NCBI GenBank assembly: GCA_902801475.1
Contig: CADCIO010000002.1
Location: 1 to 64,000, forward strand
Length of the DNA: 64,000 nucleotides
Direction: 5' to 3'
DNA from: an uncultured Bacteroidales bacterium
Lineage (GTDB): Bacteria; Bacteroidota; Bacteroidia; Bacteroidales; Bacteroidaceae
The notes beneath the pieces are model-generated. The model was not told the DNA's origin and ran no database searches. It saw nothing but the letters and a program-made list of their open reading frames with translations. The position numbers and the translations under genes were made by a program. How positions within the stretch are numbered: the stretch's first letter is position 1; each line of letters opens with the position of its first letter. Of this stretch, positions 25,382 through 55,549 are shown piece by piece.

Positions 25382-25389
25382 TACTTTTG
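25382..25389 (+). promoter_or_regulatory. -7 element for the cobalamin-riboswitch operon
   Basis: TACTTTTG immediately upstream of the riboswitch, placing the transcript start at the foot of helix P1. Confidence 0.6.
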
Positions 25390-25393
25390 CACC

Positions 25394-25608: not shown

Positions 25609-25637
25609 CATTAGCGACGTTTGTCTGCGGGATTACG

Positions 25638-30993: not shown

Positions 30994-30994
30994 C

Positions 30995-32968: not shown

Positions 32969-33001
32969 CTTTTATTTATTAATAATTAATCAATTAATAA
33001 G

Positions 33002-34141: not shown

Positions 34142-34150
34142 TTTGTATCT

Positions 34151-36252: not shown

Positions 36253-36264
36253 AAACAGATACTT

Positions 36265-37434: not shown

Positions 37435-37459
37435 GACAACGGAAAATAGACAACCGATT

Positions 37460-39566: not shown

Positions 39567-41351
39567 TTAATGGATGCCGCCAGCGTCGTCTATCAGAAGG
39601 ATGGTGAGGTCGCCGTGTGGCAGGAGGGGGGCGCAATGCGTCAGGCAATGGCGGATGACGGTGCGGCAAAAGGTTTCTATCTGTTCGGAGGGGATGATGC
39701 CCCAGAGTTCGCGTGCCAAGGTGATGCTTGCTACTTGTTCGATGACCTTGGTGTCACAGCCTGATTCTTCTAACATCTGGATGATGAACGCTTTGTTCAT
39801 CGTCTGTTTTTTGCTGTGGGTGTCGAGGTGTCCCTCTGCCAGTTTCACCGCCTTGCCGAGCATGATGCCGAGGGTGATGCGGGGGATGTCGAGTTCGTTG
39901 GCGATTTGCAAGGTGGCTCCGATGGCATTGCCGTATTCCACAAATGCCTGCTGGGGAAGGTTGGGGTAGTGGGTCTGTAGGAATCCCTCGCTCTTCATGC
40001 CGCTGTGCAGCACGACGCGGTCTGTGCCGCTTGCCTTCGCCACCTCCATGCACTTGCGGATGCTCTCGATGAAAGCCTCTTCGCTGAAAGGTTTCACGAT
40101 GCCTGACACGCCGATGATGCTGATGCCTCCCTCGATGCCGAGACGGGGATTGAAGGTGCGGCGGGCGATGTCTTCGCCTTGGGGGACGGAGATGGTAATT
40201 GACAGTTGACAGTTGACAGTTGACAGTTTCTCTAGATTATGGCGAATCATTTGGCGGGGCGCTTTATTGATGGCAGGCTCGCCAACAGGATAGTCGAAGC
40301 CGGGGAGCGTGAACTTGCCCACGCCTTCGCCACCACAGATTGCAAACTGGTCGGCTTGCCTCACATGAGCCCTCACTTCGATGCCATCCGTCACGTCGGG
40401 GTCATCGCCTGCTTGCTTGATGCAGTAGGCGTGGTCTTCTCCATATCCGACGGGGACGGGGATGGTCTCGCCATTGGGCAGGATGACGGGCACCTCGTCG
40501 GGTGTCTCCCCTGTCAACAAACGGGTGGCGGCTGCGATGGCTGCCGCTGTGGCACAGGTGCCGGTGGTCAGTCCGCTGTGGAGGGGATAGAATTCGGGGA
40601 GCAGTTTTTCCACCATTCTCCGGAGACCGTGCTCGCCGTTGACGCGGTGGAAGATGGCGGGTGTGACGGGACGTCTGATGGCATACATCTTCATGCCTAA
40701 TGCCCTTGCAGCCTCCACTTTCTCCGTGAAACCTCCTGAGTGTCCGCTTTCTTTCAGCAGGATGGCATCGGCACGGACGGGAATCTCTTTGGCGTCTTCA
40801 TAGAAGCACAGTTGCTCGTCGGTGGCTCCCTGCTGATGAGCCAGCTGAATGCTGCTCTCGCGGTTCAGGATGCGGTAATAGACCTTCACGCCTTGTTCTT
40901 CCAAAGGCTTGAGTTTGGCGATGCTCTGCACACCGGTGGTGGCAAGGAGGGTGGAAAGTTGACAGTTGACAGTTGACAGTTGACAGTTTTTGGGGGTGAG
41001 GTGTGAGATGAGGGAGGCATAGGAATCAATCCATGTGATGTCAGGGTCTCTCTCCGTAAAGATGCGTTCGAAGCGTATGGCAGGGATGCCAAGCTGTTCG
41101 GATACTTCAGCCACGGTCCGATGCAGCACCTCGGCAAAAGGATGGGCAGCATCGACCAAGAGTCTGATGTCATGTTCCTGGCAGAACGATGTCATCGTCT
41201 CCTTATCCATGGCGCCATCGATGCGGATGCCATGATGGAGCGTCACCTCCTGCTCGCCCGTCTTCGTGCTGTAGTAGAACGTGTTGCCAGCCTCCTCAAG
41301 CGCCTCTATCGCCTTGCGCCCCTCGGTCGTGCCACCAAAAACTAATACCAT
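39567..41351 (-). CDS. Fused cobalt-precorrin-6A reductase (CobK/CbiJ) and cobalt-precorrin-5B C1-methyltransferase (CbiD)
   Basis: This 594-residue fusion has an N-terminal CobK/CbiJ part (about 1-240; F-G-G-T-T-E-G-R-K near 5, D-A-A-H-P-F-A near 66). The C-terminal CbiD part runs about 255-594 (S-G-L-T-T-G-T-C-A-T-A-A-A, V-S-G-I-V-K-P-F-S-E-E). Both act in anaerobic corrin-ring synthesis. Two in-frame heptamer arrays encode N-C-Q-L-S-T-V-N-C-Q-L-S-T in the CobK part and L-S-T-V-N-C-Q-L-S in the CbiD part. The ATG at 41351 fits the CobK N-terminus. It has its own promoter divergent from the GH30 gene. Confidence 0.9.
   Translation of the reverse strand: MVLVFGGTTEGRKAIEALEEAGNTFYYSTKTGEQEVTLHHGIRIDGAMDKETMTSFCQEHDIRLLVDAAHPFAEVLHRTVAEVSEQLGIPAIRFERIFTERDPDITWIDSYASLISHLTPKNCQLSTVNCQLSTLLATTGVQSIAKLKPLEEQGVKVYYRILNRESSIQLAHQQGATDEQLCFYEDAKEIPVRADAILLKESGHSGGFTEKVEAARALGMKMYAIRRPVTPAIFHRVNGEHGLRRMVEKLLPEFYPLHSGLTTGTCATAAAIAAATRLLTGETPDEVPVILPNGETIPVPVGYGEDHAYCIKQAGDDPDVTDGIEVRAHVRQADQFAICGGEGVGKFTLPGFDYPVGEPAINKAPRQMIRHNLEKLSTVNCQLSITISVPQGEDIARRTFNPRLGIEGGISIIGVSGIVKPFSEEAFIESIRKCMEVAKASGTDRVVLHSGMKSEGFLQTHYPNLPQQAFVEYGNAIGATLQIANELDIPRITLGIMLGKAVKLAEGHLDTHSKKQTMNKAFIIQMLEESGCDTKVIEQVASITLARELWGIIPSEQIETFCRTVIRHCLTHCAPLLPHGDLTILLIDDAGGIH
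40197..40231 (-). repeat. Period-7 array inside the CbiD domain
   Basis: Plus strand AATTGAC, then AGTTGAC three times, then AGTTTCT. The coding strand carries GTCAACT units, the orientation free of stop codons. Confidence 0.88.
40957..40991 (-). repeat. Period-7 array inside the CobK domain
   Basis: Four exact AGTTGAC units (plus strand) then AGTTTTT. The coding strand carries GTCAACT. It lies in frame between the S-H-L-T-P-K and L-L-A-T-T-G-V segments. Confidence 0.9.
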
Positions 41352-41402
41352 ATTATATATATATATGAAGGAATGGGAATGGACGGATTGGTTGTCCGAA
41401 GG

Positions 41403-41410
41403 CAAAGGTA
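41403..41410 (-). promoter_or_regulatory. -7 element for the CobK-CbiD gene
   Basis: TACCTTTG on the minus strand, 51 bases before the ATG. It is divergent from the GH30 promoter at 41454. Confidence 0.55.
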
Positions 41411-41453
41411 CGGATTTTTTACCGAACATGCCCTCCGTTTGATAAAAAATGTG

Positions 41454-41461
41454 TACCTTTG
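41454..41461 (+). promoter_or_regulatory. -7 element for the GH30 gene
   Basis: TACCTTTG, 23 bases before the ATG at 41485. Confidence 0.55.
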
Positions 41462-41484
41462 TGCCGACAAATCTATCAGAGACT

Positions 41485-43926
41485 ATGAACAAAAGACTTC
41501 TATCATTGATTGTGGCCGTGGCTATCGTTATGACGGCTTCGGCTCAAACCAGTTTCAGCAAGGCCACCACGCTGTATGTGATGCATAGCAGTGGAAAGCA
41601 CCTTGAGATGGGCAGTGACAATGGCGGATGGATTGAGACCTCCACGAAGGCGAATCCTCAGCAGATGACCATCACGCCCGTGGGCAATGGCTACTACACC
41701 ATCCAGGTGGCAGGGAAAACACAATATCTGTCGAAAACGGGTTCGTGGAACTCCACCTTCGGGACCAGCGCATCGGCTGACGAGGCAAAATGGAGCATCG
41801 AGCCAGGTTCGGGCCAATACGTCAAACTGCGCTGCAAGGCGAACAACAGATATTTGGGCACCGACAGCAACGACCCTCATCAGAAGGTTTTCACCGACAA
41901 GGATGGTGCGGATATTAAGCACCTGTGGTACTTCAGCGAAGATGTGATGCAAGCACCGCCTGTGGCCACTTTCGACTATATGGTCAGTCCGCAGGTGGTC
42001 CGCCAACACTTTGACGGTTGGGGCGTGTCGCTCTGCTGGTGGGCAGGTCAGTGCGGCAAGTGGTCAGACCAGCATATTGATGAGATAGTGGATTGGATGG
42101 TCAGCCCGACAGGTCTGAACTACTCCCATTTCCGTTATAACATCGGTGGCGGCGACGATCCTGCAAATGCACATTGCGACCAGCATCACATGGGACGCGG
42201 CAAGGGATTGCGTGCCGAGATGGAGGGATTCAAGGACTTCAGCGGCGATGACTATCATTGGGACCGCGATGCAGCCCAGCGCAAGATTATGTTGAAGATT
42301 AAGGAGAAACGTCCTGATGCCGTCTTCGAGGCCTTCAGCAATTCATGTCCTTACTATATGACCTATAGTGGCTGCGTGAGCGGGAATACGGATGGGGGCA
42401 AGGACAATCTGAAGCCTGAGTATTACGAGGAGTTCGCCCACTATCTCGTCGATGTGTGCAAGCACTATAAGGAAGAATACGGTATAGAATTTAAGACACT
42501 CGAACCTTTCAACGAGTCGGTCACCAACTTCTGGTATGCCAATGGCCCGCAGGAGGGTTGCCACTTCGACTATCAGTCTCAGATTAAGTTTGTCCGTGTC
42601 TTGGAACCCATCCTGCGTGCATCGGGTCTCAACACGGTCATCTCAGCATCAGACGAAACCAACATCGGACTCAGCGTCGAGGGCTTTAAACAATTCAAGA
42701 ATGCTGGTGTGCTGTCGAAAGTGGGACAATGGAACACGCATACCTATTCAGGCAATAATGCCGACCGTGCCCGTCTGGCACTGTTGGCTCATCAGTCTAA
42801 GATGCCACTGTGGATGAGCGAGACAGGTTCGGGTGGCAACGGTATTGGCGGAAACCTCGCATTGGCTCAGCGCCTCTTCGACGATATGCGATACATCCAA
42901 CCCGAAGCCTGGATTGATTGGCAGTATATGGAGGAGGCCAACGACCAGTGGTGTACGATTCAGGGCAGTTTTGCCAACCAGACGTATAAGAAGGTGAAGA
43001 ACTACTATGTGCGTCAGCATTGTACACGCTTCATCCGTCGCGGTTACGACATCATTACTTCGCCCTGCTCCCAATCGCTCTGTGCCGTCAATGCCAACAG
43101 GGACACGTTAGTGGTGGTGCTGCTGAACGAAGGAGCCAAGGCCATGCACAACATCGACCTCTCGCTCTTTACCGAACTGCCTGTGCTCAGCAATATCAAA
43201 GCATATCGCACATCGGCCAGTGAGAATCTGCTCAGCACTAAAAACGGTATCAGTCTCAATGGCAACACACTCAGTGTAGCAATGCCTGCACAGTCCATTG
43301 TCACACTCGTCATCCCTGCCCGCAGTGCAGCCATCCAACCTGAAGAACTGCTGCGTGATGGAGGCGAGTACATCATCATCCCTCGTCATGAGACTACACG
43401 CGCCATCACGGCGACAGGCAGTAAAGTGACGATAGAGGATCTGGAATACAGCGATGCCCAGCGTTGGACATTGGCAGATAAGGGCAATGGGAAGTATGGG
43501 TTGCAGAATGCTCTCGGATTGCGACTTACGGCTCATCGCAACAGCAACAGTTCCTCGCTGACGGCTCAGAAGGGACAAGCCAGCGAACAAGATTTCTATA
43601 TTGACGCTGTTGACTATCCATTCTACAAGATTTTGGCAAGCAACGGCCGCAGTCATGGCTTTGACCTGAGCAACGAATCGACGGCAGCAGGCACCTCCGT
43701 CACTATCTGGCAGTATCAGGACAGCAATCCTACACCCATCCATCGGCAGTGGATGCTTGTTCCGCTCACTGCGTCTGCAGAGACCGACGCCATCGAAGAT
43801 GTTCAGCAGACTTCTGACATTACTAAAGACGAGTCCGTCTATGACCTCTCGGGCCGTCGCATCGACAAAGCAAACATGCAGAAGGGAGTCTATATCATCG
43901 GTGGACGCAAAGTTGTGATGCCATGA
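41485..43926 (+). CDS. Secreted GH30-family glycoside hydrolase with ricin-like and T9SS tail domains
   Basis: This 813-residue protein has a signal peptide ending A-S-A-Q. An N-terminal beta-trefoil-like domain (about 22-150) precedes a GH30 catalytic barrel (about 165-590). The proton donor is Glu344 in E-P-F-N-E-S and the nucleophile Glu446 in W-M-S-E-T-G-S. The G-W-G-V-S-L-C-W-W start resembles endo-beta-1,6-galactanases. A ricin-type domain runs about 620-770. The end (Y-D-L-S-G-R-R-I then G-V-Y-I-I-G-G-R-K-V) looks like a T9SS sorting tail, which fits porQ at 18 kb. It is unrelated to the B12 genes around it. Confidence 0.88.
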   Translation: MNKRLLSLIVAVAIVMTASAQTSFSKATTLYVMHSSGKHLEMGSDNGGWIETSTKANPQQMTITPVGNGYYTIQVAGKTQYLSKTGSWNSTFGTSASADEAKWSIEPGSGQYVKLRCKANNRYLGTDSNDPHQKVFTDKDGADIKHLWYFSEDVMQAPPVATFDYMVSPQVVRQHFDGWGVSLCWWAGQCGKWSDQHIDEIVDWMVSPTGLNYSHFRYNIGGGDDPANAHCDQHHMGRGKGLRAEMEGFKDFSGDDYHWDRDAAQRKIMLKIKEKRPDAVFEAFSNSCPYYMTYSGCVSGNTDGGKDNLKPEYYEEFAHYLVDVCKHYKEEYGIEFKTLEPFNESVTNFWYANGPQEGCHFDYQSQIKFVRVLEPILRASGLNTVISASDETNIGLSVEGFKQFKNAGVLSKVGQWNTHTYSGNNADRARLALLAHQSKMPLWMSETGSGGNGIGGNLALAQRLFDDMRYIQPEAWIDWQYMEEANDQWCTIQGSFANQTYKKVKNYYVRQHCTRFIRRGYDIITSPCSQSLCAVNANRDTLVVVLLNEGAKAMHNIDLSLFTELPVLSNIKAYRTSASENLLSTKNGISLNGNTLSVAMPAQSIVTLVIPARSAAIQPEELLRDGGEYIIIPRHETTRAITATGSKVTIEDLEYSDAQRWTLADKGNGKYGLQNALGLRLTAHRNSNSSSLTAQKGQASEQDFYIDAVDYPFYKILASNGRSHGFDLSNESTAAGTSVTIWQYQDSNPTPIHRQWMLVPLTASAETDAIEDVQQTSDITKDESVYDLSGRRIDKANMQKGVYIIGGRKVVMP

Positions 43927-43930
43927 TAGC

Positions 43931-43992
43931 GAATACTATCTTCACCCGATTTGAATAGTATCTTCACCCGTTTTGAATAGTATCTTCACCCG
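43931..43992. repeat. 22-bp tandem repeat, three copies
   Basis: GAATA(C/G)TATCTTCACCCG recurs at 43931, 43953 and 43975 with exact 22-base spacing. The stop of the minus-strand CbiG-CobM gene lies inside it, so the repeat encodes the last residues of that protein (T-G-E-D-T-I-Q-N-G). Confidence 0.88.
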
Positions 43993-45787
43993 TCCGGAAA
44001 AGATGGGTGAAGTTTTTGTTGTACAGTTCTGAGAAACCGTGGCGGTTGTCGATGGCTTCGCCTACGACGAGCATGGTGGTCAGGGTCAGGTGATTGTCAT
44101 GTACAATCTTTGCCAAATCCTTCAATTGCCCCCGATAAATCTTCTGGTCAGGCCATGTGAGGTGATAGCAAGCAGCGACAGGTGTGTCGGCCGGATATTC
44201 CTGCAACAGTTCCTTCTGGACATCATCCACGATGGCTGCACTCAAGAAGATGCACATCGTCGATTGGCTCTTGGCGAGCAGGTGCAGCTGTTCCTTTTCC
44301 GGCATAGGAGTGCGCCCCTCGCCTCGTGTAAGGATGATGGTCTGTGTACGTTCTGGAATGGTGAACTGACTTCTCAACTCAGCAGCAGCAGCCAAGAACG
44401 AAGAGATGCCAGGGGTGATGTGGTAGGACATCTGGTGCTGGTCGAAGAAAGCCATCTGCTCCTGAATGGCTCCAAAGATGCAGGGATCGCCCGTGTGCAG
44501 ACGCACGATGAAATGTCCTTGGTCGTAATGCTCCTTCATCAGGGCACATTGCTCTTCGAGGTTCATGTCGGCAGACGAGCGAACAACGGCACCCGGCTTG
44601 TGGCAGTCAGTCAGTTCCTTCGGCACCAGAGAGCCAGCATAGAGAATAAGGTCAGCCTTCTCCAGCATCTTCCGTCCACGCACAGACACGAGGTCAGGGT
44701 CGCCAGGACCAGCACCGACTATCTCGATGTGGCCGATGGAAGAGTTTAGAGTTGAGGGTTTAGAGTTTAGAGCGCGAAGATGCTGCTCGTCGATGGCAAG
44801 GGCTGCTGTCCAGTTCTTGCCCTTCACCTTGGGGATGATGAGCTTTCCATGATTGGAACCCAAGATGGCGGCTGCCTCGCAGACACTGGGAGTGCCCACA
44901 TGCTTCGCGACGGTCGTGCTGGGATTGGGCACATCGACTTCCGCTAGTTCTTCGGCCGTGAAGAATACCACTTCTTCCTCATACACATCTCTCAATTCTT
45001 CCACGAATGGCTCGTCCGCCTTTACGTCGATGGTACAGTATTTCTTGACACAGGGAAGAACGCCACGATCAGCAAACGCTTGGTCTATCTCATCGTATAT
45101 CTGTTCGTAATCGTCTGGATGATGTGCCAGTCCAAAGCCAATCGTCCCCACCATCGGCACAAAATGCAGCACCAGCATATTGTCAGGATAGGGTAGTTTG
45201 AACGGCGACACGATGATGAGGAGTTTGTACTGGCTGGCAGCGGCCTCCTTGATGTCGTTGATGAGGGTGACATGCTCGGGAAGCGTCTTCTCCAAATAGT
45301 CGGTGCCCTCATCTCTTACCTGTAAAAGCAGGGCGGTGGGTTGGCGATTGACAAAGGCGAAGATGCAGTCATTCATGTCCTCAATGTCGCTGGCAACAGG
45401 CCAATCGAAACGCTTCTCCAAGGTGTCGAGCGCCCACAAACCGGCGTTGTCGCTTTGGGTGGTGATGACGGGATTGGCTCCGAGAATGGCAGCCACTTCT
45501 TTTGTCAGGTCGTTGGCTCCTCCCACATGACCAGACAGCACGGAAACGACATGCTTCCCCATACTGTCGATGCAAACGACGGCAGGGTCGGTGTGCTTGT
45601 CTTTCATATATGGAGCGATCGTGCGTACACAGATGCCCATGGCACCGATGAAGATGAAGGCATCAAAGTCGTTCCACTGATCCCCTACATCTGTGCGCTG
45701 TATGCTTTTGGCACTCAACTGACGCTGGAGCATGAGTGCGATGTCCTTGCCAGCCTCGTTGATTTGTATGACTGCTATTTGCTGCAT
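43964..45787 (-). CDS. Fused CbiG and precorrin-4 C11-methyltransferase (CobM/CbiF)
   Basis: This 607-residue fusion has an N-terminal CbiG part (about 1-345; G-A-M-G-I-C-V-R near 48, S-G-H-V-G-G-A-N-D-L near 85). The C-terminal CobM/CbiF SAM methyltransferase runs about 358-607 (V-G-A-G-P-G-D-P-D-L, R-L-H-T-G-D-P, L-T-R-G-E-G). CbiG opens the lactone of cobalt-precorrin-5A; CbiF makes that intermediate, so the two steps are consecutive. The junction between the domains (L-N-S-K-P-S-T-L-N-S-S) is encoded by a period-7 array. It overlaps the upstream cbiET gene by 13 bases and is the last gene of the riboswitch-2 operon. Confidence 0.9.
   Translation of the reverse strand: MQQIAVIQINEAGKDIALMLQRQLSAKSIQRTDVGDQWNDFDAFIFIGAMGICVRTIAPYMKDKHTDPAVVCIDSMGKHVVSVLSGHVGGANDLTKEVAAILGANPVITTQSDNAGLWALDTLEKRFDWPVASDIEDMNDCIFAFVNRQPTALLLQVRDEGTDYLEKTLPEHVTLINDIKEAAASQYKLLIIVSPFKLPYPDNMLVLHFVPMVGTIGFGLAHHPDDYEQIYDEIDQAFADRGVLPCVKKYCTIDVKADEPFVEELRDVYEEEVVFFTAEELAEVDVPNPSTTVAKHVGTPSVCEAAAILGSNHGKLIIPKVKGKNWTAALAIDEQHLRALNSKPSTLNSSIGHIEIVGAGPGDPDLVSVRGRKMLEKADLILYAGSLVPKELTDCHKPGAVVRSSADMNLEEQCALMKEHYDQGHFIVRLHTGDPCIFGAIQEQMAFFDQHQMSYHITPGISSFLAAAAELRSQFTIPERTQTIILTRGEGRTPMPEKEQLHLLAKSQSTMCIFLSAAIVDDVQKELLQEYPADTPVAACYHLTWPDQKIYRGQLKDLAKIVHDNHLTLTTMLVVGEAIDNRHGFSELYNKNFTHLFRTGEDTIQNG
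44744..44771 (-). repeat. Period-7 array at the CbiG-CobM junction
   Basis: Plus strand GTTTAGA, GTTGAGG, GTTTAGA, GTTTAGA. A pure TCTAAAC array on the coding strand would contain TAA, but the one variant unit removes it. Confidence 0.85.
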
Positions 45788-46995
45788 GTTAGTATCTCAA
45801 TAGGATGATTGTCGTTCAATATGATTTTGGTCGGTGCATCTTGTTTCAGGCCAAGTTCTTCGCATGCTTCATCCCAAAGTTGGTGACTATCGGTCAAGAC
45901 CTTGGGAGCCTTCACACTATTCATCACGATACACCCATCATCGGTCAGGACGGTCAGCACCTTTTTAATGATCTCCTTCAGTTGACCGCCATGACCACCA
46001 ATGAAGACGGCATCGGGACGAGGTAAAGATGCAACATCTGCTTCCAGGAAGTCGCCGATGTGCACATTGATGACCGGGGCGCCAAACTTTCTAGCATTCT
46101 CTAGGATAATGGCTTCGCATTCGGGACGAATCTCGAAAGCTTCGATGTGGAGGTGTGGGAACTGCAAGCGTGCTTCGATGGAGATGCTTCCTGTACAAAA
46201 ACCGATGTCCCAAAGCACGTGTCGATGGGGCAAATTAAGGGCTTGCAGCGTGAGCAGGCGGATGGGCATCTTGGTGATCATCTTCTCCCTGCCATCGAGG
46301 AGGGAAAACGCTGAGTCGGGGATGCCGAAGGGTCGTATACGCTGACTTGTCTTTTGCAGAATGATGCAGTTGGGATGGCTGTAGATGGTTTGCTCATCAT
46401 AGCGGCTTACCCGTTCCAATTCTTCGTTTCCCAGATTCTCTCCTACCATCATGAGGTAGTTCGTATAACCGTATTCCACCATTCGCTGATGGATAGCGTG
46501 TGGTGTCTTGATTCGATCTGTCAGCACACCTATCATCGATTCGCCGTTGATCAGTGCTTCATCGAGTTTCTGCCAGGGACGACCTGTGAGCGAAACGACG
46601 TGCATGTCGTGGTAGGCTACAGACATCCGATGCGCCAGCATTTGCAGGGAGTTGAAGGTGGGGAAGACCTTGATCTCTGCATCGGGCATCTTGCGTTGGA
46701 TGGTGTTGGCAAAGCCGAAGAATAAGGGGTCGCCAGAAGCGAAGACAATAATCTCAGAGGTGAGAGGTGAGAGGTTAGAGGTGAGAGAAAGGTATTGCTC
46801 AAAGACGGCATCGAGGGGGACTGTGATGTCTATCCATTCGGCACCGTCGGGCAGGAATGGAACAACAATCTCGTGGTGGCGTTTGCCTCCAGAGAACACC
46901 TTTCCGTTTCTGATGACCTCCAAGACTTCTGGAGGAAAGAAAGGCTGCGGGTTGTCCGATATACCAATAACAACGAATCTAATCATAACTTTCAA
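45775..46995 (-). CDS. Precorrin-6Y C5,15-methyltransferase, CobL-type (CbiE-CbiT)
   Basis: This 406-residue protein has a CbiE part (about 1-210; V-V-I-G-I-S-D-N near 7, F-A-S-G-D-P-L-F-F-G near 87) and a CbiT part (about 225-406; W-D-I-G-F-C-T-G-S-I-S-I-E-A-R, a SAM-binding loop). Together they methylate C5 and C15 and remove the acetate side chain. A heptamer array (46755-46789) encodes L-T-S-N-L-S-P-L-T-S just before the S-G-D-P motif. An alternative ATG lies at 46986. It starts 4 bases after the CobJ-CbiC stop. Confidence 0.92.
   Translation of the reverse strand: MKVMIRFVVIGISDNPQPFFPPEVLEVIRNGKVFSGGKRHHEIVVPFLPDGAEWIDITVPLDAVFEQYLSLTSNLSPLTSEIIVFASGDPLFFGFANTIQRKMPDAEIKVFPTFNSLQMLAHRMSVAYHDMHVVSLTGRPWQKLDEALINGESMIGVLTDRIKTPHAIHQRMVEYGYTNYLMMVGENLGNEELERVSRYDEQTIYSHPNCIILQKTSQRIRPFGIPDSAFSLLDGREKMITKMPIRLLTLQALNLPHRHVLWDIGFCTGSISIEARLQFPHLHIEAFEIRPECEAIILENARKFGAPVINVHIGDFLEADVASLPRPDAVFIGGHGGQLKEIIKKVLTVLTDDGCIVMNSVKAPKVLTDSHQLWDEACEELGLKQDAPTKIILNDNHPIEILTCSK
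46755..46789 (-). repeat. Period-7 array inside the cbiE part
   Basis: Plus strand CAGAGGT, GAGAGGT, GAGAGGT, TAGAGGT, GAGAGAA. The coding strand reads ACCTCTC units, free of stops; the reverse would contain TGA and TAG. Confidence 0.88.
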
Positions 46996-46999
46996 CCAT

Positions 47000-48418
47000 C
47001 TACAAATCGCGTCCAGGTTTCAGTTGTTCTGCATCATCAAAGGTGAGGATAGCGTTGCACAAGGTGGCAGCCAGATTGCTACCTCCTTTGCGTCCCTCGA
47101 TGATGATTTTGGGAATGTCTTTGAAGGGTTTCACCATGTGTTTTGACTCCTTCACATGCACGAATCCCACAGGTGCGGCGATGATGCCAGCAGGATGTGC
47201 CTTGCCCTTGCGGATCAGGTCGCAGAGTTCCATGAGGGCTGTGGGTGCATTGCCGAAGGCGAAGAGAGCATCTGGATGTTCCTCCACAGCGAGACGGATG
47301 CCGGCTTGGGTGCGTGTGATGCCCTTTTCTGCAGCCATTTCAGCCACACGAACATCGGAAAGATAGCACTTGGCTTCCACTCCAAGACGTGTGAGTGCAC
47401 CTTTGCGGATGCCGCTGGTGACCATCGTGACATCGGTGATGATAGTGGTCAACTCGCCCTTCTTTACCTTATTATATAATGTGGCAACAGCTCCGTCGTC
47501 AGTATGGAGCAGATTCTCCATGTCGAAGTCGGCTGTGGTGTGAATGGCATGAAGTAGTGCCCACTTGTGGTCAAGCGGATAGTTCTTGCGCTTCAACTCA
47601 CCCTCGATGGTTCTGAACGACTCCATCATAATCAATTGTCCCTTCTTCTCACCATTTCCCTCACCTCTCACCTCTAACTTCTCACCTCTATAATACCCTC
47701 GTGGCGTGATCATCTTGTCGTTCCACTCGTAAGATTGGGAATTGCCGATCAGAATCACCGTGAACATATCGACCGCTTCGGGGTCAAACTCGCCCAGGGT
47801 GGTGATGGTCACTTCCTGTTCTGGCCGTCCTGCCTGTCTGACAAAACCAATGGGCGTGTCAGCAGCACGTTCTTGCAAGAAGATCTCCTGCAATCGGTAA
47901 AGCTGCCAATATCTGCCGTTTGACTTGGGATTATATACTGCCGTCACAAAGTCGCCCATAGCTGCCGCTTTGATTCTCCGCTCGATGACGTCCCAAGGAG
48001 TCATCAAGTCGCTTAAGGAGATGACGCAGAAGTCATGACCCACAGGCGCACCTAACAGGGATGCTGCCTTTTGGAATGCCGAAATGCCTGGCAGAGCCTC
48101 CACAACGATGTCACTATTCCGCTGCTTCTTCATCTCATATATCAGGGGGGTCATCCCATATATGCCAGCATCGCCAGAGGAGATGACCACGACGGTCTTG
48201 TCTTGTTCTGCCAGTTGAAAGGCTTGTTCTGCACGTTCGCGCTCATGCTTCATGCCCGTGTCGATGCATTCGCACCCTTCTTTCAGATAAGGTGTGATGA
48301 ATTGAAAATAGTATTTGTAGCCAACGACCACATCAGCCTCACCCACAGCCTTGATGACTGCCGGCGTGATGTCTTCTGGGCTACCTGGTCCGATGCCTGC
48401 AACGATAATCTTTTTCAT
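47000..48418 (-). CDS. Fused precorrin-3B C17-methyltransferase (CobJ/CbiH) and precorrin-8X methylmutase (CbiC/CobH)
   Basis: This 472-residue fusion has a CobJ/CbiH part (about 1-245; A-G-I-G-P-G-S-P-E-D near 7, S-S-G-D-A-G-I-Y-G near 81). The CbiC part runs about 262-472 (H-T-T-A-D-F, T-D-V-T-M-V-T-S-G, G-N-A-P-T-A-L). The first contracts the ring; the second moves a methyl group to form hydrogenobyrinate-type product. The linker E-K-L-E-V-R-G-E-G-N-G-E-K-K-G is encoded by a period-7 array. An internal promoter at 48426 places the ATG almost at the transcript start. Confidence 0.92.
   Translation of the reverse strand: MKKIIVAGIGPGSPEDITPAVIKAVGEADVVVGYKYYFQFITPYLKEGCECIDTGMKHERERAEQAFQLAEQDKTVVVISSGDAGIYGMTPLIYEMKKQRNSDIVVEALPGISAFQKAASLLGAPVGHDFCVISLSDLMTPWDVIERRIKAAAMGDFVTAVYNPKSNGRYWQLYRLQEIFLQERAADTPIGFVRQAGRPEQEVTITTLGEFDPEAVDMFTVILIGNSQSYEWNDKMITPRGYYRGEKLEVRGEGNGEKKGQLIMMESFRTIEGELKRKNYPLDHKWALLHAIHTTADFDMENLLHTDDGAVATLYNKVKKGELTTIITDVTMVTSGIRKGALTRLGVEAKCYLSDVRVAEMAAEKGITRTQAGIRLAVEEHPDALFAFGNAPTALMELCDLIRKGKAHPAGIIAAPVGFVHVKESKHMVKPFKDIPKIIIEGRKGGSNLAATLCNAILTFDDAEQLKPGRDL
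47661..47688 (-). repeat. Period-7 array at the CobJ-CbiC junction
   Basis: Plus strand TCACCTC, TCACCTC, TAACTTC, TCACCTC. In this orientation a longer pure array would reach a TGA in frame; the short length keeps it open. Confidence 0.85.
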
Positions 48419-48469: not shown

Positions 48470-50539
48470 TTATTGCTTGAACTTCACTTTGAGTCCGACG
48501 GTGAGCATTCTGCCTGGATGATAGAGAGCATATTTGCGCGCTGACGAATCAATGCGATGATCTGTTTTGTCAAAGAGATTGTCGATGCCGATGCTGGGTT
48601 CGAGGAGTGCCCATGTCGTGCAGTCGAACGTATGCGTCGTGTTGAGATTCCACACGCCATAGCCTGGGGCGTCTTCATACGAGCCAGTGTAGTAGGTCTT
48701 CGATTGCAGTCGGCCGTTCAGATTGACATTGAGGGCATAGCGTCCCCATGCATGATGATAATTGGCTGCAAGGGTTGCCGAATTCCTAATGCTGCGTTCC
48801 AGCACACTCCATTCACTCCCGCTCTTGGTTCTTGCGTAGGTGTATGCCCAGTTGGCAGAGAGATTGAATCCTTGGAACAAATTGGCAGACACATTCACTT
48901 GCACTCCCTTCACATCGCCCTTGTCGCTGTTTTGATAGAGGGAATAGCGTTCCAACTTGGATGCTTCTTCTGCACTCATCTCTGGGAATTCTCCTTGCAG
49001 CATGGCGAGTGAGGCGTCATCCACATCAATGTTCTGCTTCACGACCATATCATTGATGAGGTTGATATAGCCTGTGACGCTCATCAGCAGTTTGTCGGTG
49101 TGGTATTCTGCATTGAGGGCAAAGTAGTTGCTCTTCTCAGGCTTCAAGCTCTGGTTGCCGAAACTGATCTGCGGCTTACCACGATTGACGGCATAGTAGT
49201 GGTAGTAAAGCTCATCCAAACCTGGTGCTCGGAAACCAGCCGAGTAGGTGGCGCGGAAATTAAACGCACCAGGAGAATACATCAGTGTTGCCTTGGGTGT
49301 GAAGCGGTCGCCAAAGGTCTCGTGATGGGTGTAGCGCGCACCGACAGTCGCCGTCATATATTGCAGGAACTTCTGCTCATGCTGTCCGTAAAAGGCGAGG
49401 GTATATACTCCTTTGTCAATGCTGCCGGAAGTGGCTTCGAGTTCATCTCTGCGCCAGTTTGCTCCCAAGATGGTCGTACCTTCCCTGACCAGTCCGAGAA
49501 TGGATTTGAGGTCAGCTTCGTAGGCATGTTGCTTCTTGGAAAGAATGAAATCACCCACCTTGTTGGTTTTGGTCTCCACATCGTATTCCTTGCCATAACG
49601 GAAACGATCGGCCGTAAACGTCGCTTGCAAGGAGTTCTTTTGTGTGAATTTGTAGATGCCACCAGCATTCCAACGGAAACCTTTGTACTGCATCTCATAG
49701 TCTGTTCCTCCTGTGATGTCAGGTCGTGTGTTGGGACGGTCTGTGATTTTGTAGGAATAGTCCAGTCCTGCGTTGAATGCCAGACGGTTGTTGGGCGCAA
49801 AGGTGAATTTCTGCCCTACAAGATTGGAACGATAGCCCGTGAAGAGCGGTGCAATCGTGGGTTGTGTGTCCGTATCTGAACCTTTCACGTACTCCAGACC
49901 GTTGTTCTGGTAACTGTCTGCACGGTCGTGTGTGAAGGAAGTGTAAGAGCCGAATCCATGTGTGAAGATGTCGAGTGTGACAGCTTCAGTCAATTGTCCC
50001 TTACCTGAAATGCGTGTATCGCTGGTCACGCAGACAAGGTTTTGTGTGGGTTGGTCGGTGATGATGTTGATGACACCAGCAATGGCATCGCTACCATAGA
50101 GTGAGGAAGCTGCCCCATCCAATACTTCAATGCGCTTCACGCGTGACATGTTGATGCGGTTGAGATCCACATTGTTGGAGATGTCGCCCGTCAACTTCTG
50201 CCCGTTGATGAGGATGAGGATGTATTTATTCCCAAGGCCGTTCATGCGGAGGAAGGTACCCATTGAGTTAGGCGCCATCGACACCTGCGGCATCATGCGT
50301 GTGAGGGCTGCGTCGAAGGTGCTGATGCCCTGTTCGTGAATTTCCTGAGCAGAGAGCACACGTACGGGTGTGGCTGTAGATTTGAGCCGCTGATGGTGAC
50401 CAGAACCCGTCACCACCACAGGGTTGAGGTTATAGGTGCGCTCCGTCACAGTGGAGTCACGATGCTCCATCTTGTGTACTTGGGCAAAAGCGACGCTCCC
50501 GCATGAGAGCGCCGCCACGAAAAACACTTTTTTAATCAT
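48470..50539 (-). CDS. TonB-dependent receptor in the cobalamin operon (second)
   Basis: This 689-residue receptor has a signal peptide ending A-F-A-Q. A plug domain (about 40-160) contains V-V-V-T-G-S-G, M-N-G-L-G-N-K-Y-I-L-I-L-I and S-L-Y-G-S-D-A-I-A-G-V-I-N-I-I. The barrel has a typical terminal strand (L-K-V-K-F-K-Q). The plug resembles HmuR/BtuB-type receptors for porphyrin-like rings. It stands between a surface chelatase and corrin genes, so a tetrapyrrole or corrinoid substrate is likely. Confidence 0.88.
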   Translation of the reverse strand: MIKKVFFVAALSCGSVAFAQVHKMEHRDSTVTERTYNLNPVVVTGSGHHQRLKSTATPVRVLSAQEIHEQGISTFDAALTRMMPQVSMAPNSMGTFLRMNGLGNKYILILINGQKLTGDISNNVDLNRINMSRVKRIEVLDGAASSLYGSDAIAGVINIITDQPTQNLVCVTSDTRISGKGQLTEAVTLDIFTHGFGSYTSFTHDRADSYQNNGLEYVKGSDTDTQPTIAPLFTGYRSNLVGQKFTFAPNNRLAFNAGLDYSYKITDRPNTRPDITGGTDYEMQYKGFRWNAGGIYKFTQKNSLQATFTADRFRYGKEYDVETKTNKVGDFILSKKQHAYEADLKSILGLVREGTTILGANWRRDELEATSGSIDKGVYTLAFYGQHEQKFLQYMTATVGARYTHHETFGDRFTPKATLMYSPGAFNFRATYSAGFRAPGLDELYYHYYAVNRGKPQISFGNQSLKPEKSNYFALNAEYHTDKLLMSVTGYINLINDMVVKQNIDVDDASLAMLQGEFPEMSAEEASKLERYSLYQNSDKGDVKGVQVNVSANLFQGFNLSANWAYTYARTKSGSEWSVLERSIRNSATLAANYHHAWGRYALNVNLNGRLQSKTYYTGSYEDAPGYGVWNLNTTHTFDCTTWALLEPSIGIDNLFDKTDHRIDSSARKYALYHPGRMLTVGLKVKFKQ

Positions 50540-50614: not shown

Positions 50615-51772
50615 TTACTCCTCGTCAGGCGCCGTAGTTGGTGTAGAGAGTGCATCCTCTGTGCCCAACTTGTCAATGGCCTCACGAGTGTGGTTCATCC
50701 ACAGCTTGCGCACAGCAGAACGCTCAGCAAGTGCAGGGATGTAGTCGGTGCCAGTAGCGTAGCCCTTCAGACAAGCCTCCTTGAAAGTGGTCTCGTAAGC
50801 CATAGTCTTAATGTCTGCGTCGTTGAACATCGAGAACCAGCTTCCCTCATCATCTGGGTCAGCCATGTCGTTGTGAGCGTGGTCGCCGGCAATAGACATC
50901 AATGGGTAGAGTTGTGCCTTTTTTGCATTATTTGCAGCGTAAGTGACGTCCATGCTGATAGCACCCACCTCGTATGTGACGGTACGGCCAGCAATGTTAT
51001 CCAACACGTCGTCCACCAATGTCTGATCCATATCTACAGTGCCCACATAGTAGTTCTTGTTGATGGCACGAAGGTACTGCTCCAGCTGCACATAACGGAT
51101 ATTACCACCATAGTAGTCGTAGCCTTCTGGGTTACCATGACCCATGAATGCCACAATACCTTCAGCAACAGCTGCCTTGATGTCTGATTCTTTGTTCAGT
51201 ACTTCTGCCAATGCCTCAGCATCGCTCTCTTCAGCCATCAGTGGCGTACCGATTACGACGTTGCGGTCAAGACTCTTCAGGTAGGCAGTGGTGAAATTTC
51301 CATTCTTGTTGTTCATGAAATTCTTGACATAAGAGTCGCGCACGTTGCGGTACTCTTCACCAGGAATCACCTGCAAAGACTGCACCACAATCTTCTTGTA
51401 ACGAGCCTGACCGATGGCGTTGAGCCAGTGCTCTGGGTCGTAATAGTCCTTTGGAGCTACATTTTCACCTTCACGGGCATTGTTGATGCACTCGATGGAA
51501 GAGAAAGAGAGAAACACATCCCAACCCGGGAAGTTGGCCTTATAGTCGTCCACCACTTTTTCGAAGGTATCGTAAGCCTGCTGCCAAGTGGAACCGAATG
51601 CCACGATCAAGATCACCTTGTCATTCTTCTTCTGCTTGTTGACCATGTTGGTCACTTCCTGTTGATACTTCTGATAGTTTGATGAGTTGTCATCATCGTC
51701 GCTACAAGCGGTGAAGCTCATAGCCGTCATGAGGGCTACTGCAGCCGCCATGAGAAACTTAATTGTCTTCAT
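50615..51772 (-). CDS. cbiK: Surface-lipoprotein CbiK-type chelatase
   Basis: This 385-residue protein has the lipobox F-T-A-C (Cys23) followed by S-D-D-D-D, the signal for display on the outer face of the outer membrane. The rest is a CbiK-type class II chelatase: V-A-F-G-S-T-W near 58, M-G-H-G-N-P near 210 with His212, and A-G-D-H-A-H-N-D-M near 295 with His298 and His300. Cytoplasmic CbiK inserts cobalt into sirohydrochlorin. An exposed copy between two TonB receptors suggests loading or removing a metal from a tetrapyrrole outside the cell. Its true substrate is unknown. Confidence 0.87.
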   Translation of the reverse strand: MKTIKFLMAAAVALMTAMSFTACSDDDDNSSNYQKYQQEVTNMVNKQKKNDKVILIVAFGSTWQQAYDTFEKVVDDYKANFPGWDVFLSFSSIECINNAREGENVAPKDYYDPEHWLNAIGQARYKKIVVQSLQVIPGEEYRNVRDSYVKNFMNNKNGNFTTAYLKSLDRNVVIGTPLMAEESDAEALAEVLNKESDIKAAVAEGIVAFMGHGNPEGYDYYGGNIRYVQLEQYLRAINKNYYVGTVDMDQTLVDDVLDNIAGRTVTYEVGAISMDVTYAANNAKKAQLYPLMSIAGDHAHNDMADPDDEGSWFSMFNDADIKTMAYETTFKEACLKGYATGTDYIPALAERSAVRKLWMNHTREAIDKLGTEDALSTPTTAPDEE

Positions 51773-53897
51773 TGTCGTTTTGATTTAAAGAGTTAGACTT
51801 ATAGTTGTTAAAAAGTTTTTTGCCATGATTGAACCGGATGGTGAAGGCAGCATACACGGTAGTGCCAGGGTTGGTGGTGCCGAGATGCAACCCATGATCG
51901 GTCTTATCCACATAGTTGAAGATGTTATCGACTCCTGCTTCGAGGTTGAAGGTGAGGGGACGCTGCTTGCCGTGCTTGGTGGAGAAAGAATAGTTGCCCG
52001 TCAGTCTCCAAAGCTGGTAGCCCTTGCCGTTGCCGTTCAGTTGGTAGTAGCGTTTGGTGGAGGCACGTCCGTAAATGCCTGCTCCCCATGTGTTCTCGTT
52101 CTTCAAGGTGTGGTTCCACGTCACATAACAATTCCCCTTGTGGTGTGCCATACCGTCGATGATCACGCTCTTTAGCACGTCATCATCGCTATCGTACAAT
52201 TCTGCATCAGTGTCCAAATAGCTGTAGCCTAATCCTGCTGTCCACTCCTTGTTGAAGCGATAGCGCAGGGTCACATCCGCACCATAGGTCTTGGCTGACT
52301 CCAAGTTCTTGTATTTCCGTGTCTTGATGGGCAGATATTTGGTGTAGAGGTCGATGGGTGCCTCGCTGTTGGGGATGGTGACGAGGGCAATCATGTCGTT
52401 CACCTGATTGTAATAGCCTGTAGCTGTGAAGGAGAATCCTCCGTGATTGTACTCGAAACCCAACGAGAAGTAGTTGCTTGCCTGAGGTTTGAGATTTGTG
52501 TTGCCCAAGAAGAGATAGGCACCGTTCATGTTGCGCATGTACTGATAGTAAAGTTCCTTGGGAGTGGGGGTCTTGAAACCTTGACTCCATGTGGCACGGA
52601 TGCGCAGGTCGTTCCATTTGACCATCGTGGACACCTTGGGAGTGAGATGCCAACCAAACTGCTCGTTCCTGTTCAGACGCAAACCAGCTGTCACGTTGAA
52701 CCAATCCACAGGGTTGTATTCGTCCTGAACATAGAGGGCTTCCGTATTGTCTTTCGCCTTACCTCCCTCCACACGATTGGGCGCTTTCAACCAGTCGTAA
52801 CGCCACTCCAGACCTGTGCTGAGACGATTCTCATAAGGCAAGGAGAACACGCCTTTCAGATGTGCCATCGTACGTTGTTGGTCGCTCTGCAACTGGTGCT
52901 GCCCAGGGTAGTAGGGGAAGTAGGAAGTGTGCTGCCCGTTCACATAACCGTCGGTCAGCGTGACGGCTGTGAAGTCGTAGTAGTAGGCATGACGGTTCCA
53001 ATCGACATCTAAGGTGAGGAGGTCGGTGTCATTCAGTTTCCATTTGCCACCTACAGCAGCCGAGGCATTGTTGTAGCGGAGGTCGTAGGTCTTGATGTCC
53101 ACACCAGGGTGCTTGCCGCTGGGACGGTAGATGCGTTTGCGGTAAATACTACCATCTGCATAGAGTTCTATGTCCTTGTTGATGGAGTAGGTGAGACGTT
53201 CAGATACTTGCCAGTTGGTGTAGCGATTGACGGTCTTGTTTCGTGAGTCGGTGATGACAAACTCCGTCTGATGCGGATCCTCTTTTGCAGTGTTCTGCCA
53301 TCCATCGCTGTGTTGCAGTTGGAAGTTGGTGTAACTGCTCAGCTTGCCGAGATTCAGAGCGATGCCGTTGTGTTGGCGCAGTTCGCCATAGGAACCGCCT
53401 CGTGTGGTGTTCTCGAACAGGAAACCTTCCGTGTTGTGCTTCTTCGTGATGATGTTCACCACACCTGCGATGGCATCACTTCCGTAGAGTGCAGAGGAAG
53501 CTCCTTTCACAATCTCAATCTTCTCGATGTTGTGAGGGTCGATGAGTCCGAGGTCATTTTCCCCGCCATTGTCACCATGAATGCGCTTGCCGTCGATGAG
53601 AATGAGGATGTAGTTGTTGCCCAGACCGTTCATCTGCATCTGACTGCCCATATCGCCCTCGTTGAAGGCGAAGGAAGCCGTCAGTCCCGATAGGATGTCT
53701 GCCACCGAACTGCCGGAGAAGTTCTTCAACATCTGCTTGCTGATGACCTCCGTCTGTACGGGCGCATCCTTTAGCAGGTGCTGAGTGCCAGTACCTGTAA
53801 CGACCACCTCTTGCAGGGAATCACCCTGCACGGTGTCTTGAGCCAACAATGTCTGGGTAAGGCACATCAGCGCCCATCCCATGATCAATTTTCTCAT
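51759..53897 (-). CDS. TonB-dependent receptor, first gene behind cobalamin riboswitch 2
   Basis: This 712-residue receptor has a signal peptide ending L-L-A-Q. A plug domain (about 28-145) contains V-V-V-T-G-T-G, M-N-G-L-G-N-N-Y-I-L-I-L-I-D-G-K and S-A-L-Y-G-S-D-A-I-A-G-V-V-N. The barrel ends in A-A-F-T-I-R-F-N-H plus a polar tail. It is related to the receptor at 48470 but clearly distinct. It overlaps cbiK by 14 bases. Direct riboswitch control implies corrinoid uptake. Confidence 0.9.
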   Translation of the reverse strand: MRKLIMGWALMCLTQTLLAQDTVQGDSLQEVVVTGTGTQHLLKDAPVQTEVISKQMLKNFSGSSVADILSGLTASFAFNEGDMGSQMQMNGLGNNYILILIDGKRIHGDNGGENDLGLIDPHNIEKIEIVKGASSALYGSDAIAGVVNIITKKHNTEGFLFENTTRGGSYGELRQHNGIALNLGKLSSYTNFQLQHSDGWQNTAKEDPHQTEFVITDSRNKTVNRYTNWQVSERLTYSINKDIELYADGSIYRKRIYRPSGKHPGVDIKTYDLRYNNASAAVGGKWKLNDTDLLTLDVDWNRHAYYYDFTAVTLTDGYVNGQHTSYFPYYPGQHQLQSDQQRTMAHLKGVFSLPYENRLSTGLEWRYDWLKAPNRVEGGKAKDNTEALYVQDEYNPVDWFNVTAGLRLNRNEQFGWHLTPKVSTMVKWNDLRIRATWSQGFKTPTPKELYYQYMRNMNGAYLFLGNTNLKPQASNYFSLGFEYNHGGFSFTATGYYNQVNDMIALVTIPNSEAPIDLYTKYLPIKTRKYKNLESAKTYGADVTLRYRFNKEWTAGLGYSYLDTDAELYDSDDDVLKSVIIDGMAHHKGNCYVTWNHTLKNENTWGAGIYGRASTKRYYQLNGNGKGYQLWRLTGNYSFSTKHGKQRPLTFNLEAGVDNIFNYVDKTDHGLHLGTTNPGTTVYAAFTIRFNHGKKLFNNYKSNSLNQNDNEDN

Positions 53898-54200: not shown

Positions 54201-54235
54201 TTGAAAATTGATAATTGAAAATTGATAATTTTTAC
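54201..54235 (+). repeat. Period-7 array, units TTGAAAA/TTGATAA
   Basis: TTGAAAA, TTGATAA, TTGAAAA, TTGATAA, TTTTTAC between the divergent riboswitch operon and cobB. Confidence 0.75.
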
Positions 54236-54280
54236 TATCCAGCTCGTTTTCTGTGGAAAAAAACATCCCGAATGGCTAAT

Positions 54281-54308
54281 TATCAACTGTCAACTGTCAA
54301 CTGTCAAC
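54281..54308 (+). repeat. Period-7 array, unit TGTCAAC
   Basis: TATCAAC then TGTCAAC three times, ending ten bases before the cobB -7 element. Confidence 0.88.
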
Positions 54309-54317
54309 AAAAAATAC

Positions 54318-54325
54318 TACCTTTG
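54318..54325 (+). promoter_or_regulatory. -7 element giving a near-leaderless cobB transcript
   Basis: TACCTTTG, then exactly 7 bases, then ATG at 54333, the same spacing as the CobJ-CbiC gene. Confidence 0.6.
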
Positions 54326-54332
54326 CACTCCG

Positions 54333-54986
54333 ATGACACATTCTTTTCTCATATCAGCACCCACAAGTGGCTCTGGCAAGACGACAATTGCCCGAGGGCT
54401 GATGGCGTTGTATGTGAAGAAGGGGATGAAGGTGCAACCCTTCAAGTGCGGACCTGATTACATCGACACGAAATTTCATGCTGTCGTATGCGGTCGCCCC
54501 AGCATCAATCTCGATACCTTTATGGCAACCCAAGAGCACGTGAAGGAGCTTTTTGTCCATTATGGCACCGATGCCGACCTGTGCATTGTGGAGGGCATGA
54601 TGGGCTTGTTCGATGGCTATGACCGCGACAAGGGTTCGTCGGCAGAGATAGCAAGCGTGTTGGATGTGCCTGTGGTGCTGGTGGTCGATGCCAAGTCGGC
54701 AGCTTACTCCATCGCCGCTTTGCTGTCGGGTTTCCTCCATTTCCGTGAGGATGTGCGCATCGCAGGAGTCATCTTCAACAAAGTGGGTTCACAGCGTCAT
54801 CAAGAGATGCTTCAACAGGTGTGTGACGACCTGCAGGTGGAGTGCTTCGGCTTCCTTCCCAAGCATCCAGAACTGGAACAGGGTTCACGCTATTTGGGAC
54901 TCGATTTCTCAGAGGACACGAAGAACGATACATTGGTCAAACTATTGGAAGAGAACGTCAGATGGGAAAGGCTCTTAAAGTTGTGA
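54333..54986 (+). CDS. cobB: Cobyrinate a,c-diamide synthase, ATPase half (split CobB/CbiA)
   Basis: These 217 residues hold the N-terminal ATP-binding half. They include A-P-T-S-G-S-G-K-T-T near 9-18, F-K-C-G-P-D-Y-I-D near 37-45, E-G-M-M-G-L-F-D-G near 87-95 and V-V-D-A-K-S-A-A-Y-S near 117-126. CobB/CbiA amidates the a and c side chains of cobyrinate using glutamine. Family members are single chains of about 430-460 residues. Here the frame stops at 54986 and the glutaminase half continues in the -1 frame, with a 25-base overlap. It could be a frameshift mutation, a programmed shift, or two coupled subunits. Confidence 0.87.
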   Translation: MTHSFLISAPTSGSGKTTIARGLMALYVKKGMKVQPFKCGPDYIDTKFHAVVCGRPSINLDTFMATQEHVKELFVHYGTDADLCIVEGMMGLFDGYDRDKGSSAEIASVLDVPVVLVVDAKSAAYSIAALLSGFLHFREDVRIAGVIFNKVGSQRHQEMLQQVCDDLQVECFGFLPKHPELEQGSRYLGLDFSEDTKNDTLVKLLEENVRWERLLKL

Positions 54987-55549
54987 TGGCAAGGAATGCC
55001 GAGTCGTTCTCCTTCTATTATCAGGAGAACCTTGACCGATGGGAGCGAGAGGGTAGTGTGACCTTCTTCGACCCCGAGACTGATGTGCCCGACCTGAGCG
55101 ATTGTGACTTGCTCTACCTCCCTGGTGGCTATCCTGAGAAACATCTGGAGGCGCTGGTGGCGATGGAACCGACTCGTCAATGTATCCGTGACTATGCCGA
55201 GCGAGGTGGACACATCGTGGCAGAGTGTGGTGGCATGATGTACCTCTGCCAAAGCATCGTGACCGACAAAGGCGAATACCCCATGTGTGGTGTCCTGCCC
55301 TACAAGATTACAGCCCGACAGTCCGACCGCAAGCTCTCCCTCGGCTATCGCCGTTTCACCCTCGACGGAAAGGAATATCGGGGACATGAGTTCCACTACA
55401 CCCAGTTCCTCGGCGATGCCCCTTCCTCCATCGTGCAGGTCTATAATGCCAAGGGTGACCCCGTGCCTACCCCTGTGTTCAAATATCGGAATGTATTGGC
55501 AAGCTATACACATCTTTATATTATATACACTTATTCATTACTTAATTAA
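54962..55549 (+). CDS. Cobyrinate a,c-diamide synthase, glutaminase half (split CobB/CbiA)
   Basis: These 195 residues hold the class I glutamine amidotransferase half. They include A-R-N-A-E-S-F-S-F-Y-Y near 10-20, L-P-G-G-Y-P-E-K near 53-60, the nucleophile Cys89 in A-E-C-G-G-M-M-Y-L, and the catalytic His in A-S-Y-T-H-L-Y near the end. After that His the tail (I-I-Y-T-Y-S-L-L-N) is AT-rich and unlike the family. An ATG at 54962 could start it independently, and the frame is open upstream to 54842. Confidence 0.83.
   Translation: MGKALKVVMARNAESFSFYYQENLDRWEREGSVTFFDPETDVPDLSDCDLLYLPGGYPEKHLEALVAMEPTRQCIRDYAERGGHIVAECGGMMYLCQSIVTDKGEYPMCGVLPYKITARQSDRKLSLGYRRFTLDGKEYRGHEFHYTQFLGDAPSSIVQVYNAKGDPVPTPVFKYRNVLASYTHLYIIYTYSLLN

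Follow-up and report, generated by a model that had tools for sequence, protein, structure and literature searches.

A CbiK-family lipoprotein with a predicted surface signal, paired with a TonB-dependent receptor under a cobalamin riboswitch, as candidate entry step of a truncated corrin pathway in Bacteroidales

The window analysed here is a stretch of 64,000 nucleotides from an uncultured Bacteroidales bacterium (assembly GCA_902801475.1, contig CADCIO010000002.1, positions 1 to 64,000 of the forward strand). It contains an operon in which the gene of a CbiK-family lipoprotein is the second gene after a cobalamin riboswitch (Table 1). The first gene codes for the TonB-dependent receptor TBDR1 and overlaps cbiK by 14 bases, and cbiK is followed by the gene of a second receptor, TBDR2, and by the fused genes cbiH-C, cbiE-T and cbiG-F. 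The first-pass annotation of this DNA had placed the gene between two TonB receptors and downstream of a B12 riboswitch, and both statements were confirmed. By sequence, the best match of both TBDR1 and TBDR2 is the colicin I receptor, BtuB being a weaker one. The gene cbiA, which is divergent from the operon, is split into an ATPase part and an amidotransferase part, which overlap. A frameshift due to a sequencing error was considered for this gene and rejected, since the split recurs in 29 loci (window included; fused in 39), in many of them with an overlap of 25 bases, and it looks like gene fission rather than such an error.

Table 1. Features of the cbiK operon and of other cobalamin-related loci in the window
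Feature	Position	Strand	Remarks
Cobalamin riboswitch RF00174	54007..54189	-	Infernal 89 bits, E 1.2e-20; TBDR1 start about 110 bases further downstream
TonB-dependent receptor 1 (TBDR1)	51759..53897	-	Plug PF07715 and TonB_dep_Rec PF00593; stop overlaps cbiK start
CbiK-family lipoprotein gene (cbiK)	50615..51772	-	385 aa, ATG start; PF06180
Cys23 and SDDDD (lipobox cysteine and lipoprotein export signal, LES)	51689..51706	-	Sequence, conservation, published consensus
Glu140 codon, active-site glutamate	51353..51355	-	Invariant column
His212 codon, metal-site His of MGHG	51137..51139	-	Invariant column
His298 codon, metal-site His of GDHAHND	50879..50881	-	Invariant column
TonB-dependent receptor 2 (TBDR2)	48470..50539	-	PF07715 and PF00593
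cbiH-cbiC fusion (C17 methyltransferase / methylmutase)	47000..48418	-	TIGR01466 324 bits, PF02570
cbiE-cbiT fusion	45775..46995	-	TIGR02467, TIGR02469 over cut-off
cbiG-cbiF fusion	43964..45787	-	PF11760/PF11761/PF01890, TIGR01465 344 bits
cbiJ-cbiD fusion	39567..41492	-	PF02571, PF01888
cbiA, split into two overlapping ORFs, divergent from operon	54222..55549	+	
Separate locus: receptor, DUF5074 lipoprotein (SNDDD after Cys), two binding proteins, two permeases	30758..38485	+	
Second cobalamin riboswitch	25382..25620	+	5' of carboxylate-transporter-like ORF and carboxylase-like ORFs (by eye only)

The assignment to the CbiK-type chelatases, also made in the first-pass annotation, agrees with the profile search and with the AlphaFold model of the protein. 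PF06180 (CbiK) matched residues 52-366 with E 5.3e-37 and 128 bits, compared to a cut-off of 26.2, and positions 1-261 of the 262 profile positions were covered. The model (mean pLDDT 84.6) has the predicted class II chelatase fold of the CbiK family. It could be aligned to apo-FetB of Porphyromonas gingivalis (9b86, which we take to be the same protein as IhtB) with Z 31.4 over 260 residues at 1.6 A and 30% identity, to CbiKP of Desulfovibrio vulgaris (2xvx) with Z 31.4 over 262 residues and 31% identity, and to CbiK of Salmonella enterica (1qgo) with Z 28.0; SirB and the ferrochelatases ranked well below (Z about 20 to 15). The metal-site histidines, said to be kept in the earlier reading, are indeed invariant together with Glu140 in a 29-row alignment of relatives, and the Glu-His-His set is kept in 79 of the 80 loci from the best 80 of 502 relatives, the exception (L190) being a broken frame. 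The equivalog model NF047852 of NCBIfam (sirohydrochlorin cobaltochelatase CbiK) was matched with 86.6 bits, under its cut-off of 400. Hence, the window protein is a clear member of the family but is not filed as a CbiK equivalog, and sirohydrochlorin is no more than a candidate substrate.

The N-terminus of the protein reads MKTIKFLMAAAVALMTAMSFTAC-SDDDD, i.e. Cys23 is directly followed by SDDDD, and such a lipobox cysteine with a subsequent LES is the mark of a surface-exposed Bacteroidota lipoprotein. SDDDD was proposed as LES consensus of Bacteroides fragilis surface lipoproteins, and a reporter lipoprotein provided with it reached the Capnocytophaga cell surface (PMC5080379). In our sample of 121 genomes of the family, 29 window-like CbiK loci besides the window were fetched, which encode 31 proteins. 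In 29 of these 31, the lipobox cysteine is accompanied by an acidic stretch or something close to it; one of them, the protein of L056, was missed by the search pattern and included on the grounds that its cysteine is obvious on inspection. The remaining two (first copies in G002 and G067) resemble signal peptidase I substrates. Further loci were taken from named records, namely those of the best 80 of 502 relatives, which partly overlap the family sample; here, all 80 CbiK proteins have the lipobox cysteine and 78 have at least three acidic residues at positions +2 to +7. BtuF-like lipoproteins from the same loci served as internal control for the export signal. In the pooled loci, the acidic signal occurs in 96 of 107 CbiK lipoproteins but in none of the 24 BtuF-like binding lipoproteins, and the three BtuG-like lipoproteins all carry it. 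Since CbiK conserves the LES and its BtuF-like neighbours lack it, we regard it as likely that the window CbiK is exposed on the cell surface, as predicted from its signal only. The surface-lipoprotein signal noticed earlier thus stands as a conserved motif; the accompanying statement on the normal location of CbiK, cytoplasm or periplasm, overlooked the P. gingivalis lipoprotein IhtB/FetB (PMC10913741).

The neighbourhood of the gene is conserved as well. All 29 family loci and all 79 further loci with a called cbiK have TBDR1 immediately 5' of the lipoprotein gene, and 61 of the latter show the usual 14-base overlap; the 80th locus (L128) was left out, because its cbiK is hidden by a longer opposite ORF. 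When 1.45-kb pieces from the operon starts were scanned with Infernal, all 29 (20 + 9) contained the cobalamin riboswitch, and riboswitch, receptor and CbiK co-occur in all 29 family loci besides the window. The fetched piece includes at least one corrin gene in 66 of the 79 loci, several pieces being short. As relatives show the same combination of motif, receptor and riboswitch, the arrangement in the window is not due to chance. At the level of the order we sampled 247 Bacteroidales genomes, 22 of them with a match, and read 20 further loci, three of which belong to the own family. A lipoprotein CbiK beside a TBDR1-like receptor was found in L231, L234, L238, L241 and L242-L244, and the last three (family f124) have the order riboswitch, receptor, cbiK, receptor, btuF, btuC, ATPase. 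CbiK proteins without evident leader occur in L235, L236 and 13 genomes of family f17. A branch with 99% SH-aLRT in the tree sets the lipoproteins, along with L245 and the two G002/G067 copies, apart from the other rows; the label lipoprotein requires three changes on this tree, in which several branches are long and the deep joins unsure. The rows nearest to FetB are the lipoproteins L231 and L242 of other families, a weakly resolved position based on the aligned FetB stretch only.

The genome of the window, which is 98.73% complete, gave no match for HemB, HemC or CbiX, and the search for CbiL yielded only cross-matches of cbiG-F and cbiH-C. The TP_methylase cut-off was exceeded by CbiF, CbiH and one single-domain RsmI-like methylase only, the latter presumably being RsmI; CbiE remained below. 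The window has a gene for each corrin step, CbiH through CbiA, and among the earlier genes that were sought only CbiK is present. A de novo cobalamin producer is recognized by HemB, HemC and CbiL, and the own genome is not of this kind. A CobN-type chelatase was rejected: the sole PF02514 match (window 10939-11277, E 3e-5) is under the cut-off, sits in an ORF that appears ParB-like by eye and is regarded as spurious.

Among the 121 family genomes, 39 have CbiK and 38 have CbiH over cut-off, with both proteins in 36 and neither in 80. CbiL was found in 17 of the 38 CbiH genomes, HemB in one of 38 and HemC in two of the 36 tested (G043 and G069 left out). The lipoprotein CbiK is present in 21 of 21 CbiH genomes without CbiL compared to 8 of 17 with CbiL (Fisher test, uncorrected for kinship), an association that represents about eight genera and not 21 independent cases. 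Fifteen of the 17 CbiL genomes have an exported non-lipoprotein CbiK, and eight have the lipoprotein as well. A methylase search in 24 genomes left one extra match each in G081 and G109 that could be assigned to no known methylase of the set. CbiK without CbiH occurs in three genomes: two exceptions to the pattern, namely G003, which has an exported non-lipoprotein CbiK, and G022 (91% complete), which has the full riboswitch-receptor-lipoprotein set on a contig that ends nearby, and G108, in which the match is a fragment. Conversely, two genomes (G043 and G069) have CbiH and CbiL but match neither CbiK nor HemB, and are exceptions to the pattern as well. Family f124 also runs against the pattern, the lipoprotein CbiK being found there alongside HemB (G487, G575) and HemC (G487). 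The HemC matches of G119 (C9) and G027 (C49) are in long frames (652 and 684 aa) that also match a methylase profile, and in G119 HemB is near HemC; either early tetrapyrrole genes were regained in rare cases, or these frames stem from contamination.

Additional CbiK copies exist in the own genus and beyond. A second CbiK-family protein of the own genome (C20:18269-18811; L074:8999-9862) has a signal peptidase I type leader, and its gene adjoins that of an ABC transporter ATPase, an arrangement conserved in the genus. This protein (contig C20, L002/L074) was rejected as a working chelatase, because both His motifs are lost. Such a second CbiK is carried by 10 of the 21 CbiL-less genomes (the genus of the window), and both histidines are lost in all seven copies examined (own genome, G111, G073, G084, G093, G119 and G102; the count omits G012, G048 and G062). 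G002 and G067 (L037, L038) have tandem cbiK genes behind two receptors and a riboswitch, of which one codes for a lipoprotein and the other for a protein whose leader is of the signal peptidase I type.

An extracellular chelatase, a cobalamin switch, an adjoining receptor and a corrin ring that can be finished but not started would together form an entry gate for a scavenged precursor. We therefore propose that the surface lipoprotein chelatase and TBDR1 act as entry step of a truncated, precursor-salvaging cobalamin pathway, a proposal which in our judgement has an even chance of being correct. At the sequence level, the present analysis establishes the protein family, the fold, the conserved site, the signals for lipidation and export, the operon, the riboswitch and the absence of the earlier genes; the route itself would run as follows. 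When cobalamin is short, the riboswitch would permit expression of the operon, and CbiK, anchored outside the outer membrane next to TBDR1, would capture a scavenged isobacteriochlorin-type tetrapyrrole, either sirohydrochlorin or its 20-methylated form factor III. The Glu-His-His site may then insert cobalt, the cobalt product would be passed to TBDR1 and brought into the cytoplasm by BtuFCD-type transport, and CbiH-C, E-T, G-F, J-D and A would complete the corrin ring there. The first-pass annotation had suggested that the protein strips, swaps or inserts metal. All three are plausible, and the genome context favours insertion, since the operon is under a B12 riboswitch, contains or adjoins corrin genes and occurs in a genome without the steps before CbiH.

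Since CbiL is missing as well, the simplest single precursor would already be methylated at C20, i.e. factor III. According to older literature, cobalt-starved corrinoid producers excrete factor III. In its most specific form, which we consider rather unlikely to hold as a whole, the proposal would be a B12 synthesis that starts outside the cell and has its steps reordered: CbiL-less species would take metal-free factor III (20-methylsirohydrochlorin) from their neighbours and insert cobalt on the surface, whereupon TBDR1 would import cobalt-factor III directly for CbiH, while CbiL-bearing relatives would use sirohydrochlorin with cobalt inserted in the periplasm. If this is true, the place of the chelatase and the retention of the first methylase would tell which intermediate a species salvages.

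Salvage through CbiK and TBDR1 could explain how such bacteria use an otherwise headless B12 pathway. Roper et al. reportedly spoke in 2000 of an 'enigma' with respect to P. gingivalis, which has a working corrin pathway without tetrapyrrole synthesis (title cited in PMC6461909 and PMC13227078). The sampled family repeats this gap on a large scale and adds a specific candidate for the entry gate, so that, if the proposal is true, the old question on P. gingivalis becomes a feeding experiment. It would also mean that rumen and gut Prevotella-like bacteria live on B12 intermediates of other species, and would affect our view of the rumen with respect to cobalt nutrition, the exchange of vitamins and the formation of propionate. 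Shelton et al. (2018) described tetrapyrrole precursor salvagers, mostly Firmicutes, which have the corrin pathway without the steps leading to the tetrapyrrole, the same gap as in the window genome; the accessible text names no entry system (PMC6461909). Our literature search, which covered few subscription papers, found no description of the CbiK of this operon as a surface chelatase. A receptor-linked CbiK lipoprotein is already known in kind from IhtB/FetB; the present analysis adds that the lipoprotein described here stands under a B12 riboswitch, keeps a receptor as fixed neighbour and is linked to a pathway beginning at CbiH.

Rumen Prevotella presumably depend on an external source of tetrapyrrole, and this need could also be served by a heme/iron system of the IhtB/FetB type. 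At the surface, the lipoprotein would remove heme iron or metallate porphyrin, and either the iron or the porphyrin would then be taken up by the receptors. FetB is the best PDB match of the window CbiK by sequence and ties with CbiKP by fold. Moreover, IhtB is a CbiK-family lipoprotein beside the TonB receptor IhtA, resembling the arrangement in the window, and was proposed to act as chelatase/dechelatase that takes heme iron for IhtA (PMC10913741), and FetB is reported to make Mn-protoporphyrin (review PMC13402209). That FetB, the close relative studied best, reportedly acts on protoporphyrin/heme and not on corrin precursors counts against salvage through CbiK and TBDR1, too. We nevertheless consider a heme/iron system unlikely, because a cobalamin switch, not an iron switch, precedes 29 of 29 checked operons, the neighbouring genes are corrin genes and FetB is only distant in the tree, in which the Prevotella-type proteins form their own supported set. 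As to differences from the P. gingivalis pair, the window CbiK is longer than FetB, the ligand proposed for that pair is heme/protoporphyrin, and the window operon shares with the Iht-type system the receptor adjoining the CbiK lipoprotein but not the ABC importer, for neither binding protein nor permease nor ATPase of that system was found in it.

The pair BtuB-BtuG of Bacteroides thetaiotaomicron likewise consists of a TonB receptor and a surface lipoprotein under cobalamin-riboswitch control, and forms stable lid complexes; however, BtuG is a beta-propeller that binds B12 and no chelatase (PMC10404256). A CbiK fold used in this manner, as a non-catalytic, tetrapyrrole- or corrinoid-binding cap for TBDR1, would be compatible with the invariant receptor pairing (29/29; 79/79), but appears improbable to us, as Glu140, His212 and His298 are invariant whereas the paralogue in the same genus lost both histidines, which indicates that they can be lost where catalysis is not needed. 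Beside such a pure lid, it is possible that CbiK combines binding with catalysis. Very improbable, in our opinion, is a lipoprotein that faces the periplasm and works like CbiKP of D. vulgaris, with the acidic stretch being incidental, since this CbiK lineage conserves the motif, which the BtuF-like lipoproteins encoded in the same loci lack; what speaks for a periplasmic orientation is the signal peptidase I type leader of other CbiK proteins in many genomes of the family and the closeness of CbiKP in fold. CbiKP (2xvx, 2xvz) is an exported CbiK like that of the window, but is periplasmatic according to its PDB title. To our knowledge, it is not a lipoprotein coupled to a TonB receptor. The CbiK of S. 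enterica shares the fold and the Glu-His-His site with the window protein; it is cytoplasmic and part of a de novo pathway.

With regard to physiology, the proposed salvage through CbiK and TBDR1 can be compared with data on Xylanibacter ruminicola. Strain KHP1 has a cobalamin-riboswitch operon of six genes, two for TonB transporters and four for cobalamin biosynthesis, which ranked in the top seven by differential expression when growth with cobalamin was compared to growth without it, the direction being unstated in the accessible text (PMC11575231). In X. ruminicola D31d, the homologous stretch reads TBDR1-cbiK-TBDR2-cbiHC-cbiP-cbiB, and by synteny with it we assign the same six genes to the KHP1 operon; the operon was found in the X. 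ruminicola strains of L141, L147, L148 and L153. The main text of the KHP1 study mentions neither 'chelatase' nor 'cbiK', and its authors suggest a partial cobalamin synthesis from precursors (PMC11575231). Propionate was formed only with added cobalamin in 13 of 14 strains of the X. ruminicola group (PMC11575231), as expected of a pathway without its precursor.

Two further B12-related loci were noticed in the window. The second cobalamin riboswitch is the only one between positions 25000 and 39000 and precedes ORFs that look like a carboxylate transporter and carboxylases; near the propionate genes of KHP1, no riboswitch is reported in the accessible text (PMC11575231). The separate locus at 30758..38485 has a receptor that is only remotely similar to TBDR1 and TBDR2, and its binding proteins and permeases are arranged in two pairs (34151..38485). 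Judged by these genes, this locus probably serves the uptake of whole cobamides.
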